DNA of 49,144 nt from a virus. Position 1 is the first letter of the stretch. Each line of letters begins with the position of its first letter. Shown here piece by piece: positions 3,395 through 22,536 of the stretch. A model generated the notes under the pieces. The model saw nothing but the letters and a program-made list of their open reading frames with translations. It searched no databases and had not been told where the DNA came from. The translations under genes and the position numbers were made by a program. Location of the stretch: IMG/VR virus record IMGVR_UViG_3300017917_000368, positions 1-49,144 of that record, one strand, 5' to 3'.

Positions 3395-3838
3395 ATGGGC
3401 CGATTGCTTAAAAATACGGTATTTAAAAGTGGTAGTCACACACTAGGAGTACCTAACTCGCCGAGTAGTGTTGGGCCTGACGTAGCAGTAACAGGTCAAA
3501 CTAGATTTAATACCACAACAAACAAGCTAGAATTTTTTGCTAACATTACAGGAACACCTAGCTGGAATGCTATTTCGCGCGAGGGTAACGTTGCTATAAC
3601 CAAAACTGAATTTACCGGCAACGGCGTTGCATCTCAGTTCTGGCCTGTAGGATACGCTGCCGGCGACGAAAACAAAGTATTAGTACACGTGGGCACTGTG
3701 TACCAAATACCTACCACTAACTATACTTTTGGTACAGGTGGCGATGCAGGAAATATTATTTTTAGTAGCCCTCCAAGCGGTAGTGCCGCTATCACAATCA
3801 TTGGTGGATTCACAAGTACAGTTTCGACACTAGCCTAA
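3395..3838 (+). CDS. Short fibre-module protein
   Basis: A 147-residue protein made almost wholly of two modules that recur in the large fibres here. The first is the hairpin QTRFNTTTNKLEFF...SWNAI (residues about 35-60). The second is a beta domain with FTGNGVASQFWPV, VLVHVGTVYQIPTTNYTF and IIFSSPPSGSAAITI (about 68-140). The same pair occurs in order near residues 350-430 of the fibre at 3876 and near the C-terminus of the fibre at 9505. It could be a small separate fibre tip or a copy of a fibre segment that became independent. It ends the operon 2413-3838. Confidence 0.72.
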   Translation: MGRLLKNTVFKSGSHTLGVPNSPSSVGPDVAVTGQTRFNTTTNKLEFFANITGTPSWNAISREGNVAITKTEFTGNGVASQFWPVGYAAGDENKVLVHVGTVYQIPTTNYTFGTGGDAGNIIFSSPPSGSAAITIIGGFTSTVSTLA

Positions 3839-3845
3839 TCATCCA

Positions 3846-3853
3846 GATAAATA
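3846..3853 (+). promoter_or_regulatory. Late promoter GATAAATA inside an imperfect hairpin
   Basis: The octamer ends 22 bases before the ATG at 3876. TAATCATCC (3836-3844) can pair with GGTTGGATTA (3861-3870) with one bulge and one mismatch, placing the octamer in the loop and the likely ribosome site in the right arm. The predicted late start (near 3859) would exclude the left arm, as at gp13. Confidence 0.78.
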
Positions 3854-3875
3854 GTGTAAAGGTTGGATTATTTTA

Positions 3876-6800
3876 ATGGCAATCAGTCGAGTTCCCGGGT
3901 TTTCACTATTACCCAATTTAGATAGACAAGGTGTAGATCTCCAGTTTACTACGCAAGGCAATGCCTTGGTGCAAATGGACTTTACTAATTTCCGCGTGGG
4001 CATAAATTCTTCTGCCCCAACCGAGTCACTGTCTGTGAATGGTAATGTTATCGTAAGTAACGGACATGTATATTCTGAAGCCAACGTGTCCTATGATCTA
4101 GGAAAAATCACTAATTACTGGCGAAATTTTTATGTAGAAAACGCAGTAATATCCAGTAATCTCACAATAGGATCTGGGTTGTCCATCAGCGGTAACATTG
4201 ATACAACCAGCATCAATGCTGATTCTCTTTATGCTGACGAGTTTTACGAAGCAGGATATCGCGTATTAACTTCTAATAGTAACATAATAGTCAATGGTGA
4301 CGTAACCGGCTCTGGTACTAATAGTAATGTTTTTGTGCTTCTAAACACGTCAGGTGTGACTCCTGCAACCTACGGTTCTGCTAATGTAGTTGTACAGTTA
4401 ACAGTCAACGACAAAGGTATAATAACCACAGCGGCAAATGTTGTACTAACTAGAATTGGAAATCTATATGTCAATGACACAGAGATATATAATCAATCAG
4501 GTAATATAGCTATTTCTTCAGTGACTGGAAACGTCAGTGTAAACAATAGTAGAATAACAAATTTAGCAACCCCAGTAAATAACACAGATGCAGTTACTAA
4601 ATTTTATGTAGACAATTCTATTCTAGTAGCAGGTAAATCAATCTTCTCAGGTAATTCGTCGGTGACTGTAAACGACGACAATACATCACCTGGGTGGATT
4701 TCTACAGTGGTTGACGGTATAGAAGTTGCTAATGTAACAACAGTTACTACACAACTTTACACCAATCTAGAAGTGGCAACGTTTTCTATATCTGGTAACT
4801 CGTTGTCATCTACAGGAAATATAATTGTTGAACCAGACTATCCGGGCATAGTTAAAGTATATGGTAATTCAGCAATTCAAATACCAGCTGGCGACGACTT
4901 TGATAGACCCGGTGACCCAACTGAAGGTTACATTAGATATAGTACCAGTAGAAATGGTATAGAATACTGGGACGGCGCTAATTGGCAGATTCCGGGCGAA
5001 GTAACTATTATTTCAGATACAATCACACCCGATGGAGTGAGTAATGTATTCACACTAACAGCAAACACAAGTACACAGGGTGTTTTGGTAAGTATCAACG
5101 GTACGGTGCAACGACCACAGAGCGCATACACAGTTACAAATAATGCTATCACATTTACAGAAACTCCGCTGACCACTGATATTATTGAAGTTAGAACACT
5201 GGCCACTGGTGCGGCATTCGCATATGAAACGTTGGGCTACGACAATTCGTTGATTGTCGCCGATGGTGTAAATCTCAATGTCACAGGTAATTTGTTACCA
5301 AGTGCTAATGTCACTTATAGTTTAGGTAGTGCAAGTTATCAATGGAAAGATCTGTGGGTTAGTGGTAACACCATCTATCTTGGTGGTGCTGCAATTACGG
5401 TTGCCGCTGGCCAGTTATCAATAAACGGTAACACAGTTGGTGCCGCTGATCCCTATGGTAACATAAATGTCAAAGCCTACACCGAAACAATGGGCTTTGC
5501 TAACTATAGTAATGTTAATGTAGCTGCATACTCACGCACACAATCATTTACAAACTATAGTAACGTAAACGTATCGTCCTATTTAGGTGGTAATATAAGT
5601 GTTGGTACAATCACTTCGGGCACATGGAATGGATCGATTATAGACGTTACCTACGGTGGCACCGGTGCATCAACATCAGCTGATGCTTTAAATAACCTAT
5701 TACCCAGCGGCGAGCAAAGCGGCTATGTATTAACCACCGGCGGAGCAGGTACATATTATTGGGCCACAGCAGGTGGCGGTGGTGGAGCTACTGTAGGACA
5801 AAGTCTTAGTACCTTACGTCAATCTAACACAGCAACCGCAGGGCAAACAGTATTTAATTTAGTAAACAATTTGTCGTATACTCCGGGCACTGGGCAATTA
5901 CGTGTTTACGTTAATGGTGTAAGACAATTTCCCAATGCCTACACAGAAACATCAGCTAATGTCTATACCTTAAGTCAGGGTGTAAATGAAGGAACTGAAG
6001 TATTTGCTGAAATTGATGCGTTTAGTACATTTAACAACTATGCTAACTTAACCTATGCCAGCAACATAGGTAATATTTTAGCAGTGGGGTTAACAGTACA
6101 ATCAGCAATCGAAACACTCGAAACAACCAAAGCACCACTGTCTAGTCCGGTGTTTACTGGTACACTAACATCTCCTATCGTTGCAGTTACTTCTGGTACA
6201 CAATCAACTAGTGTAACCACCGGAGCTCTTGTAGTAACTGGTGGTATTGGTATAGGTAAAGATGCGTTTTTCAACGGAAATATCACAGTAGCAGGTAATC
6301 TTTTCATAAATGGAAATACCACTACACTTAACACTAATAATTTAAGTATCAGTGATAGTTTAATTTACCTAGCAACAGCCAACCCCGAAGATACCATAGA
6401 TATAGGATTCGTAGGACACTTTATTAATCCAGGATATCAACATACCGGTTTAGTTCGTGATGCCTCAGATGGTACCTGGAAACTATTTGCTAATGTTGTC
6501 TCAGAACCAACTACCACTGTTGATTTTACAGATGCTACGTACAGTAATTTACGTATTGGCAATTTAACAGCAGTGTCAGCAACATTTACAACCGAGGTAT
6601 CTGCGCAGCATTTCACAGCCACAGGTAATGTGTCATCGACTAACTTAACTGGAACTTTATTAACAGCCAGTCAACCTAATATTACCGCAGTTGGTACACT
6701 AGGTACGTTAAATGTATCAGGGTTAACAACACTTGCAGAAACTACAGAAATATTAGACACTAAATTTAGCGTAACTGGTACAGTGGTGCATGATTTCAGC

Positions 6801-7088
6801 ACAAGTGCTATATGGTATTATTCCAACATAGCAGGTAATGTAACTGCTAATATCACAAACGTTCCAACCACAGATAATCGTGTGACAAGTGTGAGTATTG
6901 TAGTCAACCAAGGTTCTCCGGGGTATATTGTTAATGGTCTACAAATAAACGGATCCGCGCAGACAATTCGCTGGCAAGGCAACACAGTGCCTGCAGCAAG
7001 TACCAATAGAATTGACGTGTTTACCTTTAGTTTAATCAGAGCAGCTAGTACGTGGACAGTATTAGGTGCTGCAACATCACACGGATAA
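3876..7088 (+). CDS. Large tail fibre protein
   Basis: A 1,070-residue fibre protein. It starts MAISRVPGFSLLPNL and soon has VGINSSAPTESLSVNGN, followed by many short beta repeats of the NLTVNG type typical of trimeric fibre shafts. A hairpin GYIRYSTSRNGIEYWDGANW plus a module with VSINGTVQRPQSAYTVT lie near residues 350-430. A second copy of the module (VYVNGVRQFPNAYTET) lies near 680. TTGALVVTGGIGIGKDAFFN, near 780, is a repeat shared with the fibre at 9505. Residues near 540-580 contain two NYSNVNV repeats. It is probably a long or side tail fibre that contacts the host surface. It is followed after 3 bases by a glycine-rich adhesin-like gene, an arrangement like fibre plus tip adhesin in T-even phages. 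Confidence 0.85.
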   Translation: MAISRVPGFSLLPNLDRQGVDLQFTTQGNALVQMDFTNFRVGINSSAPTESLSVNGNVIVSNGHVYSEANVSYDLGKITNYWRNFYVENAVISSNLTIGSGLSISGNIDTTSINADSLYADEFYEAGYRVLTSNSNIIVNGDVTGSGTNSNVFVLLNTSGVTPATYGSANVVVQLTVNDKGIITTAANVVLTRIGNLYVNDTEIYNQSGNIAISSVTGNVSVNNSRITNLATPVNNTDAVTKFYVDNSILVAGKSIFSGNSSVTVNDDNTSPGWISTVVDGIEVANVTTVTTQLYTNLEVATFSISGNSLSSTGNIIVEPDYPGIVKVYGNSAIQIPAGDDFDRPGDPTEGYIRYSTSRNGIEYWDGANWQIPGEVTIISDTITPDGVSNVFTLTANTSTQGVLVSINGTVQRPQSAYTVTNNAITFTETPLTTDIIEVRTLATGAAFAYETLGYDNSLIVADGVNLNVTGNLLPSANVTYSLGSASYQWKDLWVSGNTIYLGGAAITVAAGQLSINGNTVGAADPYGNINVKAYTETMGFANYSNVNVAAYSRTQSFTNYSNVNVSSYLGGNISVGTITSGTWNGSIIDVTYGGTGASTSADALNNLLPSGEQSGYVLTTGGAGTYYWATAGGGGGATVGQSLSTLRQSNTATAGQTVFNLVNNLSYTPGTGQLRVYVNGVRQFPNAYTETSANVYTLSQGVNEGTEVFAEIDAFSTFNNYANLTYASNIGNILAVGLTVQSAIETLETTKAPLSSPVFTGTLTSPIVAVTSGTQSTSVTTGALVVTGGIGIGKDAFFNGNITVAGNLFINGNTTTLNTNNLSISDSLIYLATANPEDTIDIGFVGHFINPGYQHTGLVRDASDGTWKLFANVVSEPTTTVDFTDATYSNLRIGNLTAVSATFTTEVSAQHFTATGNVSSTNLTGTLLTASQPNITAVGTLGTLNVSGLTTLAETTEILDTKFSVTGTVVHDFSTSAIWYYSNIAGNVTANITNVPTTDNRVTSVSIVVNQGSPGYIVNGLQINGSAQTIRWQGNTVPAASTNRIDVFTFSLIRAASTWTVLGAATSHG

Positions 7089-18877: not shown

Positions 18878-18897
18878 TAATTATTCCTGGTTTTGTA

Positions 18898-18905
18898 TAT
18901 TTATC
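18898..18905 (-). promoter_or_regulatory. Late promoter GATAAATA, reverse strand
   Basis: The reverse complement of 18898-18905 is GATAAATA. It lies 20 bases upstream of the gp14 start (18877) and drives gp14, gp15 and Nudix. It shows that the octamer works on both strands and tracks gene orientation. Confidence 0.88.
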
Positions 18906-18910
18906 GTCGC

Positions 18911-18939
18911 TTGACAACTAGCTAAATTGATAGTATAAT
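18911..18939 (+). promoter_or_regulatory. Perfect-consensus sigma70 promoter
   Basis: TTGACA (18911-18916), 17-base spacer, TATAAT (18934-18939): a full match to the E. coli consensus. It is divergent from the gp14 late promoter 5 bases away. The expected start, 7 bases after the -10 box, is the A of the ATG at 18946. Confidence 0.93.
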
Positions 18940-18945
18940 ACGAAA

Positions 18946-19215
18946 ATGAACAATCAAATACAGACAAGCATGGACTGGGCCGCTGTACAGCAACGTATAG
19001 AATTGCCAGTGGTTAGAATGAAAAAATACAGTGGTGAAATGCTAAAGGTAAGTAGAAACATCGGACACATGGTAAGTGAGCTAAGTAAAGAAGAAATAAA
19101 CTGCCGCAGATTGGGCAAGCAAACAAGCAATCACAAACAAATGGTTGACAAGATTAACCAAGAGATAGCAAACTACGAACGTATGTTAACTTTTGCAGTA
19201 TTACTAGCAGGATAA
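18946..19215 (+). CDS. Small hypothetical early protein, possibly leaderless
   Basis: An 89-residue helical, charged protein, not recognised. The middle (VSRNIGHMVSELSKEEINCR, then NHKQMVDKINQEIANYERM) is probably a coiled coil. The ATG at 18946 is only 7 bases after a perfect TATAAT, so the message may have no leader; an internal ATG at 18970 (MDWAAVQQ) is the alternative start but lacks a good ribosome site. It is the first gene of the likely early unit 18946-20441, followed after 14 bases by the next gene. The strong host promoter suggests abundant early synthesis. Function unknown. Confidence 0.75.
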   Translation: MNNQIQTSMDWAAVQQRIELPVVRMKKYSGEMLKVSRNIGHMVSELSKEEINCRRLGKQTSNHKQMVDKINQEIANYERMLTFAVLLAG

Positions 19216-19229
19216 ATCAAGGAAAAATT

Positions 19230-20441
19230 ATGGCAATTAAGATTGATGGTGCAAAGAAAAAGGCTAAAGTAAGTCGCGATCCTATGTTCGTTGACGAAAA
19301 GTATACAGGTACAGAACCAGTGTGGGACACTGAACGTGCCTTACAGTTTACAGATGAAGAGTTTGATCACCATCTGCGTAAGGCTTTGCGCTACTACAAT
19401 TATTACTATGGTGTAAAAGATCTTAAAAAATACTTTGTAGCATGGTTGCGCGAACACACAGGCAAAGATAGCCAATATCATAAGTTAGACAAAGCCACGG
19501 TTGACTACTATGCTAAGACTAAAGACAGCTTGACACCTTTAACAGCCTGCGCTATTGTTCGAGCACACACCAAGGGTATGCCATTGCGTGACAAACATGT
19601 AGAATACTTGCTGAACACAGTTAAAGAAGTTATCAAACTACAAGAACAAATGGCAGATGACGATGAAGCCCCAGCAAAGACTGATGTAAAGGCCGCTAAA
19701 ACAGACGTAAAGGTGCCTACAATACAAGATCGTATGAACGCAATAGCAGACAAGCACCAACTGCACTTCTTGGAACTAGAAGACCAGCTGTTTGAAGGTA
19801 AGGCAGTTGACCCTAAAGCCTACGACTATTTGTTTAGTAAAAATGTAGCACCTGCTACCTTAGCACGTATTCTTGCTCCGTTTGAACGTAGCCGTGCCGA
19901 GTTTAACGAAGCAAAGTCTACTAAAGATGAAGATCTGAAAGATGCTTATGCCCACTTAAAATCTGCCGACTATAAACGTATTGAAGCATTTTACACAGCC
20001 TTATTTGATGGCTTTGCCCAATACAGCCAAGTTAAGAAAGCAACTAAGAAGGCTAGTGTACGTAAACCACCTGCTAAAGAAAAACTTGTTGCTAAACTCA
20101 AGTATCTAAAAAATGATACAGTGACCAAGGCAGTAAGTATCAATCCTGTAGATATTATTGGTGCGCAAGTCTTGTGGGTTTACAACACTAAAACACGTAA
20201 ACTAGGCAAATATGTCGCCGAAGACATGGGCGGTGCGTTGGGTGTTAAGGGCACTGGTATCACAGGCTATGATGAAAACAAGAGCGTAAGCAAGACCTTA
20301 CGTAAACCTGAAGCACAGATCAAAGAATTCTTAGCCGCAGGCAAGATTGATCTGCGTAAGTTCTTAGAAAACATTAAAGCTACAGAAGTGAAACTTAACG
20401 GACGTATCAATCAAGACACTATCTTACTAAAAGTACAATAA
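19230..20441 (+). CDS. Conserved-type hypothetical protein, probably early
   Basis: A 403-residue Lys-rich soluble protein, preceded by AAGGA. Residues 1-135 (FTDEEFDHHLRKALRYYNYY, VKDLKKYFVAWLREHTGKDS) look helical. Residues about 148-160 hold a low-complexity linker with a short repeat (AKTDVKAAKTDVKV). Residues 270-403 form a mixed domain with NPVDIIGAQVLWVYNTKTRK and IDLRKFLENIKATEVKLNGR. I recall similar proteins of unknown function in T4-like environmental phages, and no enzyme motif is evident. It shares the sigma70 promoter at 18911 and ends 3 bases before the left arm of the gp13 hairpin. Confidence 0.78.
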   Translation: MAIKIDGAKKKAKVSRDPMFVDEKYTGTEPVWDTERALQFTDEEFDHHLRKALRYYNYYYGVKDLKKYFVAWLREHTGKDSQYHKLDKATVDYYAKTKDSLTPLTACAIVRAHTKGMPLRDKHVEYLLNTVKEVIKLQEQMADDDEAPAKTDVKAAKTDVKVPTIQDRMNAIADKHQLHFLELEDQLFEGKAVDPKAYDYLFSKNVAPATLARILAPFERSRAEFNEAKSTKDEDLKDAYAHLKSADYKRIEAFYTALFDGFAQYSQVKKATKKASVRKPPAKEKLVAKLKYLKNDTVTKAVSINPVDIIGAQVLWVYNTKTRKLGKYVAEDMGGALGVKGTGITGYDENKSVSKTLRKPEAQIKEFLAAGKIDLRKFLENIKATEVKLNGRINQDTILLKVQ

Positions 20442-20443
20442 AC

Positions 20444-20489
20444 AAATTATCCTGTTACTATCGATAAATACTTGGTAACAGGATAATTT
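20444..20489 (+). promoter_or_regulatory. Perfect 15-bp inverted repeat sequestering the gp13 ribosome site in read-through RNA
   Basis: AAATTATCCTGTTAC (20444-20458) and GTAACAGGATAATTT (20475-20489) are perfect reverse complements. The 16-base loop holds the late octamer at 20463-20470. The right arm contains AGGA, the gp13 ribosome site. RNA reading through from the early gene upstream would form the stem and hide the site. RNA started from the late octamer (about 20476) lacks the left arm. There is no T run, so it is not an intrinsic terminator. T4 gene e is known to use this design. Confidence 0.88.
20463..20470 (+). promoter_or_regulatory. Late promoter GATAAATA in the hairpin loop
   Basis: The octamer ends 21 bases before the gp13 ATG at 20492. 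With T4 spacing, transcription starts about 20476, one base inside the right arm of the inverted repeat. Confidence 0.88.
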
Positions 20490-20491
20490 AC

Positions 20492-21409
20492 ATGAGTCTA
20501 CTACCAGCAAACGTTTCGGCGGATACTAGTTTAACTAATAATCAAAGCCTACAAACAAAATCACTTTTCAACCAATCAACTGGCACAGGTGCTGGACACA
20601 TTGCGTTTGATGCTAACTTGCAGGCACAGTTAGATACAGTAATTGCACAAAGCAATAATATCACAGACTACATTCGCCTACGCTTAGGCTATGGTATGAT
20701 TGATGTTGAAGCAGACAAAGAACACTTTGACATGGGCATTAAACAAGCTCTTATTCGTTATCGTCAAAAAAGTTCTAACGCAGTAGAGGAAAGCTATGCG
20801 TTTTTAGATCTTCATCCTGAAACACAAGAATATATCCTTCCTAACACCATCATGAACGTTCGTGCTGTATATCGCAGAGGCATCGGATCGGTCACAGGCA
20901 CAACAGCAAGTCAGTTTGAACCATTTGCATCCGGTTACTTAAACACTTATATGTTAGTGGCAGGACGAGTTGGTGGTCTAGCAAATTACGAATTGTTTGT
21001 TGATTATCAAAAGCTAGCAATGAAGATGTTTGGTGGCTTTATGAATTTTACATGGAATAAAGTAACCAAAAAATTAACGATTGTGCGTAAGATTCCGTTC
21101 CAGGGTGCGAACCCTGATCCACAAGTCAGCGAAAGCGTTTTATTACATATTGACAACGTGAAACCCGATATCATGCTTATGAATGATATAACAGCGTTTC
21201 CGTGGATCCAAGACTATGCATTAGCATTAGTTATGATTTCAATTGGCAATGCTCGCGAGAAATTTGCATCAATCGCTGGCCCAAGTGGTGGTACTTCTTT
21301 AAACGGAACCGCACTGAAACAAGAAGGTCAAGCTATGTTAGATAAACTTGATGAAGACATCAAAAATTATGTTGACGGCGGCACACCAATGACCTGGATA
21401 ATGGGCTAA
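20492..21409 (+). CDS. 13: Neck protein, gp13-like
   Basis: A 305-residue protein close in length to T4 gp13 (309). The conserved core is present: ITDYIRLRLGYGMIDVEADK, FDMGIKQALIRYRQKSSNAV, LDLHPETQEYILPNTIMNVR, then YRRGIGS. The C-terminal half includes DITAFPWIQDYALALVMISI, a conserved helix in this family. gp13 forms part of the neck that closes the head after packaging and accepts the tail. gp14 and gp15 lie 1.6 kb away on the opposite strand. Expression appears restricted to late time by the RNA hairpin and late promoter in front of it. Confidence 0.87.
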   Translation: MSLLPANVSADTSLTNNQSLQTKSLFNQSTGTGAGHIAFDANLQAQLDTVIAQSNNITDYIRLRLGYGMIDVEADKEHFDMGIKQALIRYRQKSSNAVEESYAFLDLHPETQEYILPNTIMNVRAVYRRGIGSVTGTTASQFEPFASGYLNTYMLVAGRVGGLANYELFVDYQKLAMKMFGGFMNFTWNKVTKKLTIVRKIPFQGANPDPQVSESVLLHIDNVKPDIMLMNDITAFPWIQDYALALVMISIGNAREKFASIAGPSGGTSLNGTALKQEGQAMLDKLDEDIKNYVDGGTPMTWIMG

Positions 21410-21435
21410 AATTTCGTATAATTCTATCAAAACAA

Positions 21436-21489: not shown

Positions 21490-22185
21490 ATGGGTCGTGT
21501 CATCGGCATCTGTGGGTTCATTGGGTCAGGCAAGGATACAGTTGCTGACTATCTAGTTAATTTTCATGGGTTCAGACGAGAAAGTTTTGCTAACAGCCTA
21601 AAGGATGCTGTAAGTCAAATTTTTGGATGGGACCGTGAGCTACTTGAAGGGCGTACAAAAGAAAGCCGAGAGTGGCGCGAAACCAAAGACGAGTGGTGGA
21701 GCAAACGTCTTAAAATGGACATTACTCCAAGATACGTCTTACAATACTGGGGCACAGAAGTAGTCCGCAAAGGTTTTCATAACGATATGTGGGTAGCAAG
21801 TTTAGAAAATCGTCTAGTACACACCAAAGACGATATCATTATTACTGACTGTCGTTTCCCTAACGAAATCAAAGCAATTAAAGCAGTAGGTGGTCAAGTT
21901 ATTCGCATATCCCGCGGACCTGAGCCCGAATGGTATCACCATGCTGTAAACTACAACAGAGGCATGAAACGTATTGGTTGGGCCCTGGGCAAAGAAGAGT
22001 TAGAAAAAGCCGGAGTTCATGCTAGTGAATACAGTTGGGTAGGTAGTAAGTTTGATGTAGTTTTAGACAACAACGGAAGCATTGACGACTTATACACACA
22101 GGTACGCGATTTTCTTAATAGTCAGGAACAAGATCCCCTTGACGCCACCCTAGTCCTTCCCGAGCTACTTCGTACTGGCAGTTAG
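21490..22185 (+). CDS. 1: Deoxynucleoside monophosphate kinase, T4 gp1-like
   Basis: A 231-residue P-loop kinase that phosphorylates dNMPs to dNDPs for phage DNA synthesis. The Walker A loop GFIGSGKDT (residues 9-17) opens the protein, followed by RRESFANSLKDAVSQIFGWD, RYVLQYWGTEVVRKGFHNDM-W and DDIIITDCRFPNEIKAI, the conserved core of T4 dNMP kinase-type enzymes (241 residues in T4). The strong AAGGGAG ribosome site sits 7 bases before the ATG. Its 3' end overlaps the convergent zinc-ribbon gene by 71 bases. The only clear nucleotide-biosynthesis gene in the window. Confidence 0.9.
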   Translation: MGRVIGICGFIGSGKDTVADYLVNFHGFRRESFANSLKDAVSQIFGWDRELLEGRTKESREWRETKDEWWSKRLKMDITPRYVLQYWGTEVVRKGFHNDMWVASLENRLVHTKDDIIITDCRFPNEIKAIKAVGGQVIRISRGPEPEWYHHAVNYNRGMKRIGWALGKEELEKAGVHASEYSWVGSKFDVVLDNNGSIDDLYTQVRDFLNSQEQDPLDATLVLPELLRTGS

Positions 22186-22468
22186 CACAAATAGTGCGTA
22201 AGTTTGTGTGACTGCTATTGTTTAAATCACCATCAATATAGTAGACAAATAACTGTTCCCGATACTTTGCCTTAAAACCGCACTTTTCACAGTGCGGTTT
22301 CTTTTTGTATCCAGCTAATGCCCAACTTGGTTGTTGTGGTTTTAACTTGCGGCCTTTTCGTATACAACTATTACATCTGGTTCTAAAGTGCGTAATGTCG
22401 CCCTTCTTGTAGTTAATAGAAGCAGGCATTTTACCACAGGATTGGCACAGAGGACGGTACAACATCAT
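22115..22468 (-). CDS. Zinc-ribbon / HNH-like protein
   Basis: Starting at ATG 22468 the product has 117 residues and begins MMLYRPLCQSCGKMPASINY. It has paired cysteine motifs CQSC, CNSC, CEKC and CANC, with YIDGDLNNSSHTNLRTICANC, which resembles the D-N-L-x-T-x-C-x-x-C end of HNH-type zinc modules. Such proteins are frequent in T4-like environmental phages and are often labelled HNH endonuclease. A nuclease role is possible but the catalytic His is not secure. A longer frame begins at a TTG (22531), but its extra 21 residues look unconserved. It converges on the dNMP kinase. Confidence 0.75.
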   Translation of the reverse strand: MMLYRPLCQSCGKMPASINYKKGDITHFRTRCNSCIRKGRKLKPQQPSWALAGYKKKPHCEKCGFKAKYREQLFVYYIDGDLNNSSHTNLRTICANCQYEVAREGLGWRQGDLVPDY

Positions 22469-22469
22469 G

Positions 22470-22477
22470 TATTTATA
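22470..22477 (-). promoter_or_regulatory. TATAAATA on the reverse strand, touching the start codon
   Basis: The reverse complement of 22470-22477 is TATAAATA, an exact T4-type late octamer, but it ends 1 base before the chosen ATG (22468). Transcription from it would start inside the gene, so it is either fortuitous or serves a shorter product. Confidence 0.3.
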
Positions 22478-22536
22478 ATACCTAGCGGCTAGAACCTTTG
22501 CAAAGGCACCTAAACAGCCTAAAAAAACCAAAATAA

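Follow-up and report, generated by a model that had tools for sequence, protein, structure and literature searches.

The gp13-like neck protein gene of the virus fragment studied here is preceded by a hairpin that contains its ribosome site and carries a T4-type late promoter motif in its loop. We propose, with a probability of roughly 0.86, that this element is a cis-acting translation switch of the T4 e/49/I-TevI type, which would keep the neck gene off early and turn it on late in infection. The analysed window is a 49,144-base IMG/VR virus fragment (IMGVR_UViG_3300017917_000368) with T4-like virion genes, including those for the gp13-like neck protein, a dNMP kinase, tail sheath, tail tube and terminase. 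The evidence comes from the hairpin and the promoter motif themselves, from covariation and conservation among relatives, from promoters upstream, and from a predicted difference in the energy required to open the start region.

We infer that two transcripts would cover gp13, and that repression and timing would follow from the difference between them. Early RNA initiated at a sigma70 promoter would continue past the 89-aa and 403-aa genes into gp13, taking in both arms of the hairpin, so that the AGGA would be locked in a stem of 15-17 bp and ribosomes could not start gp13. Once replication begins, a gp55-type late sigma factor would start RNA at about position 20476 from the GATAAATA element in the loop. 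This late RNA would lack the left arm, leaving a 16-nt leader open and allowing gp13 to be made. The features are collected in Table 1.

Table 1. Features of the gp13 region, in window coordinates.
Feature	Position	Strand	Basis
Sigma70 (early-type) promoter TTGACA-17-TATAAT	18911..18939	+	12/12 consensus match
89-aa ORF, first gene after the sigma70 promoter	18946..19215	+	ORF; same-size ORF in relatives
403-aa gene, phrog_11903, directly 5' of the hairpin	19230..20441	+	E 6.1e-67
Left (5') arm AAATTATCCTGTTAC, anti-Shine-Dalgarno strand	20444..20458	+	Predicted only in read-through RNA
T4-type late promoter -10 element GATAAATA, in the loop	20463..20470	+	ATAAATA in 39/39 distinct sequences
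Predicted late transcription start, ~20476	20475..20477	+	Inferred from the T4 position of TATAAATA
Right (3') arm GTAACAGGATAATTT	20475..20489	+	Inverted repeat, folding
Shine-Dalgarno AGGA inside the right arm	20480..20483	+	Sequence; 8 nt before ATG 20492
gp13-like neck protein / head-tail adaptor Ad2, 305 aa	20492..21409	+	phrog_211, E 6.8e-30
dNMP kinase gene (T4 gene 1 type), 3' of gp13	21490..22185	+	phrog_139, E 3.6e-52; Pfam DNMK
Terminator-like site, first after the early promoter, beyond the kinase gene	22275..22300	+	10-pair stem + T tract

A preliminary description of this DNA had reported a perfect 15-bp inverted repeat, with AGGA in a right arm ending 2 nt before the ATG and GATAAATA in the loop, and the sequence bears out each of these points. 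The two 15-nt arms are fully complementary and lie 16 nt apart, and the left arm starts 2 nt after the upstream stop codon. In RNA folding the stem extends to 17 pairs with a minimum free energy of -20.6 kcal/mol, compared with -7.1 +/- 2.2 kcal/mol for dinucleotide shuffles (z -6.0). It is the sole perfect 15-bp inverted repeat with a loop of up to 60 nt in the window, and the mean over 200 dinucleotide-shuffled windows was 0.005 such repeats. The arm is present a single time in the window; a search for further copies gave chance-level matches only. PeSL cassettes, which combine a mobile early promoter with an adjacent stem-loop and are dispersed in T4-type phage genomes, were rejected as a description of the element, as the loop promoter is late-type and the arm sequence is not repeated.

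The motif ATAAATA is not over-represented in the window (18 copies against 18.7 expected). It lies 10-40 nt before an ORF at nine sites, and other 7-mers of equal composition do so at no more than five; this placement is as expected for T4-type late promoters. In T4 late promoters TATAAATA spans positions -13 to -6 (PMC1524935), which puts the gp13 late start at about 20476, just 3' of the left arm, in agreement with the start predicted previously. A weaker hairpin at 3835-3880, with ATAAATA in its loop between ATCCA and TGGAT, precedes a 1070-aa ORF. Contigs G007 (L231) and G001 (L243) contain versions of it with other arm sequences before homologous-looking genes; a protein search with 3876-7088 returned too few relatives for testing this second hairpin.

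The sequence upstream is compatible with early read-through, as had been proposed from a consensus sigma70 promoter and the lack of a terminator. That promoter matches the consensus perfectly, and the terminator scan found no plus-strand terminator-like site between it and gp13. Relatives with enough upstream sequence have sigma70 promoters 5' of the same genes with 11-12 of 12 matches, apart from two that score 10/12. Homologues of the 403-aa gene adjoin RNase H, ligase and nrdC genes in phages phiM12 and OC and thus have early/middle-type neighbours, while a family search gave no confident family for the 89-aa ORF. The gp13 homologues are annotated as neck protein in PA5oct, CBB and XaC1. 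The sigma70 promoter is part of a back-to-back arrangement at 18892-18939, where its -35 element begins 7 nt from a minus-strand late motif, CGACGATAAATA, that serves the tail genes.

The position of gp13 between early-type genes and the dNMP kinase gene offers a likely reason for silencing instead of terminating, because early RNA destined for the kinase would have to pass gp13. This rationale is weakened by a possible separate kinase promoter at 21395-21422 (TGGATA-16-TATAAT, 10/12 match). The terminator-like site beyond the kinase gene may be a chance occurrence, since it overlaps an HNH-like ORF on the opposite strand. This HNH-endonuclease-like ORF (22115-22531, minus strand) lies between the kinase and sheath genes and overlaps the 3' end of the former; its antisense contains the terminator-like stem.

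To compare genes on one scale, we calculated the free energy required to unpair positions -16 to +3 around the start codon, both in read-through RNA (from -90) and in the predicted late RNA. For gp13 the predicted opening cost falls from 18.5 kcal/mol in the read-through RNA to 0.7 kcal/mol in the late RNA (difference 17.9 before rounding). This is the largest difference among the 10 late genes in the window, the next best being 4.6. It stays within 14.4-17.9 over seven assumed late starts (+/-3 nt), so that the conclusion is insensitive to the exact start. Among late genes of related contigs gp13 ranks first in G007, G003, G002, G008 and G001 and second in G006, and over distinct close loci the difference ranges from 5.1 to 22.8 with a median of 15.6 kcal/mol.

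T4 served as positive control. The top six of 31 genes were e (13.0), I-TevII (12.9), 49 (12.7), segB (11.0), I-TevI (9.0) and 26 (8.6 kcal/mol), all of them reported switch genes (PMC2988022, PMC3014915). The known case soc scored only 1.6, so the measure misses some cases. The difference between read-through and late opening energy recovers most known T4 cases and could serve to survey any T4-like genome for such switches. Several other genes stood out. HNH homing-endonuclease-like genes in G002 (L254:11607 and L251:1545) have a late promoter and a sequestering hairpin, as in I-TevI and mobE; two other late genes in G004 (L267:2286 and L270:18853) have very strong promoter-containing hairpins with differences of 14.3-14.5 kcal/mol; and another jumbo-phage late gene (L155:7939) has a promoter-containing hairpin, identified by pattern alone.

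Conservation was examined in 80 close loci from IMG/VR, found by gp13 protein and not by the hairpin, of which 39 distinct sequences were aligned. The arrangement TATCC...ATAAATA...GGATA precedes the ATG in all 80 loci, and in the 39 distinct sequences ATAAATA is invariant, lying between or overlapping the arms. Spacing from the late motif to the ATG is 18-24 nt, with 21 nt in 60 of the 80 loci. Scanning the whole viral collection with the pattern TATCCTG-ATAAATA-CAGGATA gave at least 115 matches; among the matches listed, 87 of 115 directly precede a gp13 homologue and the remainder are mostly coincidences in coding sequence. The close relatives G007 and G003, as well as G004, encode a gp55-family late sigma factor, and a marginal gp33 match was found in one contig.

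Covariation within this alignment supports the stem. Standard pairs make up 94% of it, and the compensatory changes anticipated in the preliminary description are found, both sides being altered in 8 of 17 pairs (24 cells). None of 500 shuffles was as good on any covariation measure, and slid versions gave 0-3 pairs. Changes in one arm alone, which had been named beforehand as evidence against the switch, do occur, but at the tip or the outermost pair only, leaving the core intact: many relatives have C/U at alignment column 16, L006 has a C-C mismatch, L064 has lost the tip and L040 has a 3-nt deletion. Non-Watson-Crick exceptions comprise 51 G-U and 6 A-C combinations, which indicates that selection acts on the hairpin as plus-strand RNA rather than on a palindrome in the DNA.

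Two additional elements were seen next to the hairpin in relatives. Many of them (e.g., L014:1350-1385, L018, L038) have the sequence TAATCCCCTCAAGGTAGCG(T)AAAGCC after the upstream stop codon and before the hairpin; it is absent from the window, and all 104 occurrences in the loci examined precede the gp13 hairpin. In L021, L027, L033, L046, L065 and L076 an AAAGCC/AAAGAC-type sequence pairs with the AUG and second codon (AUGGCUU/AUGUCUU) in an outer helix. This outer helix was dropped as a component of the switch, being broken in many relatives.

The same logic appears at gp13 in more distant phages. PA5oct-like metagenomic phages keep the late motif with different hairpins: one group (L215, L217 and L221 among others) has CTCTGTA...TACAGAGG, so placed that the left arm ends where late RNA is predicted to start, L204 uses the promoter as its left arm (AAATACCT/AGGTATTT), and L212 has the promoter in the loop. 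Cultured jumbo phages have strong, unrelated hairpins before gp13, with [A/C]TAAATA overlapping the left arm and the right arm containing the Shine-Dalgarno sequence. Opening differences are 21.4 kcal/mol for CBB, 20.0 for Hallingskeid, 17.8 for PHA46, 17.0 for XbC2, 16.5 for K64-1, 13.0 for slurp01 and 12.6 for XaC1, with Phosso intermediate at 7.3. For CBB and slurp01 the annotated start codon was used, and an upstream in-frame ATG sits inside the hairpin. In CBB, PHA46 and slurp01 gp13 comes out on top among the 44-49 genes that have a late motif. PA5oct, Vibrio 2.275.O and Atu_ph07 gave low energy differences at gp13; since PA5oct and Atu_ph07 have the orthologous gene with no clear hairpin, the hairpin is not obligatory for gp13.

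These hairpins are not seven independent designs, as that of CBB resembles that of XbC2, and those of Hallingskeid, K64-1 and slurp01 resemble each other. Neck protein identity across these phages is only about 33-42%. The combination of unrelated hairpins and the same geometry points to turnover of the hairpin sequence while the logic stayed. Most relatives share the order gp13-kinase, as do six of the seven cultured phages with a hairpin, K64-1 having a homing endonuclease gene after gp13 instead of the kinase; the kinase call for slurp01 and some others rests on the sequence MGRQIIAINGTIGSGKDTF, not on annotation. In PA5oct gp13 is followed by the kinase gene and then the sheath gene.

The distant hairpins also bear on an alternative in which the hairpin chiefly terminates or attenuates transcription of the upstream early genes, its overlap with the ribosome site being secondary. 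Its position 2 nt after the upstream stop codon would fit this role, and in XaC1, CBB, XbC2 and slurp01 the equivalent hairpin is followed by 5-8 T, so that a combined terminator and translation lock is plausible there. In loci L291, L295, L297 and L299 a run of 5-8 T extends from the hairpin 5' of gp13 to the start codon, so that one stem could serve as terminator and ribosome-site lock. However, the hairpins of Hallingskeid and K64-1 have no real U tract, and neither does that of the window, whose stem is A+T-rich (4 G-C pairs of 15, plus one at the arm end) and is followed by ACATGAGT. Clear terminators in the window, for instance those that precede the late promoters at 2387 and 26602, combine G+C-rich stems with long runs of T, and the gp13 hairpin is absent from the terminator scan. 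An intrinsic terminator, taken as a G+C-rich stem with a U tract, was thus rejected for the window, and we consider a mainly terminating role improbable.

A stable stem between two genes on one RNA could also serve to detach gp13 from the message before it, through cleavage by RNase III or another processing step, or it could stabilise the 3' end of that upstream message. Such a role could coexist with sequestration, but it would not lead one to expect a late promoter always placed between the arms or overlapping them, or a Shine-Dalgarno sequence buried in all hairpin families, and as the main function it is very unlikely. A DNA operator for a phage regulator, suggested by the long perfect palindrome around the promoter, is the least credible reading, because the arms change in compensating fashion with G-U tolerated and A-C hardly so, as expected for plus-strand RNA, and because the jumbo-phage orthologues have unrelated arm sequences.

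As a broader proposal, to which we give even odds, gp13 in T4-like jumbo phages may be a conserved and repeatedly re-evolved target of silencing, with unrelated hairpins each opened by a late start, because the gene sits in an early operon that has to be read as far as the dNMP kinase gene and/or because neck protein made too soon would harm assembly. The data suggest that control of this kind has stayed with one gene in divergent phages while the hairpin was replaced, which raises the question why early neck protein should be avoided. CBB and GAP32 have ATAAATA late promoters before structural genes and CBB has a gp55-like sigma factor (PMC5259590); a search of that paper turned up neither a hairpin nor translational control for the neck gene. 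In the open-licence literature we found no earlier report of such a switch at gp13. The mechanism is already known, and it is the target gene and its conservation that look new.

The switch proposed for gp13 follows that of T4 gene e (McPheeters 1986, reviewed in PMC3014915). There, early read-through RNA hides the ribosome site in a stem, for which the review gives a 100-fold reduction of lysozyme synthesis, and late promoters within the 5' part of the structure yield RNA free of it. Among the defining features of T4 switches, none that sequence can test speaks against the gp13 element. The Shine-Dalgarno sequence lies in a predicted stable stem on the read-through RNA (AGGA at 20480-20483, opening cost 18.5 kcal/mol), the late promoter would leave out the 5' arm with its predicted start at 20476 +/-3, and the hairpin is kept by compensatory change. 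The T4 precedents e, soc and 49 cited in the preliminary description indeed share this logic, but the list was too short: in I-TevI, I-TevII, I-TevIII, segB, 25/26 and Aeh1 mobE, as in 49 and soc, a late gene in an early or middle unit has its ribosome site sequestered, and RNA from the late promoter omits the 5' arm (PMC2988022, PMC3014915). The targets in the T4 and Aeh1 cases are nuclease, capsid decoration, baseplate and homing endonuclease genes, whereas here it is a neck protein gene. The neck target had been set against these precedents; since the structural genes soc, 25 and 26 are already switch targets, a structural target is in itself not unusual. More notable is the apparent recurrence of the same logic at gp13 in very divergent jumbo phages. 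T4 gene 13 itself lies behind the late gene wac, with no late promoter found close upstream. Compared with T4 e, the window element controls a different gene with an unrelated hairpin sequence, and its stem is longer and predicted to be stronger (17.9 vs 13.0 kcal/mol on the same measure). With gp13, a textbook T4 control device would be extended to a core morphogenesis gene.
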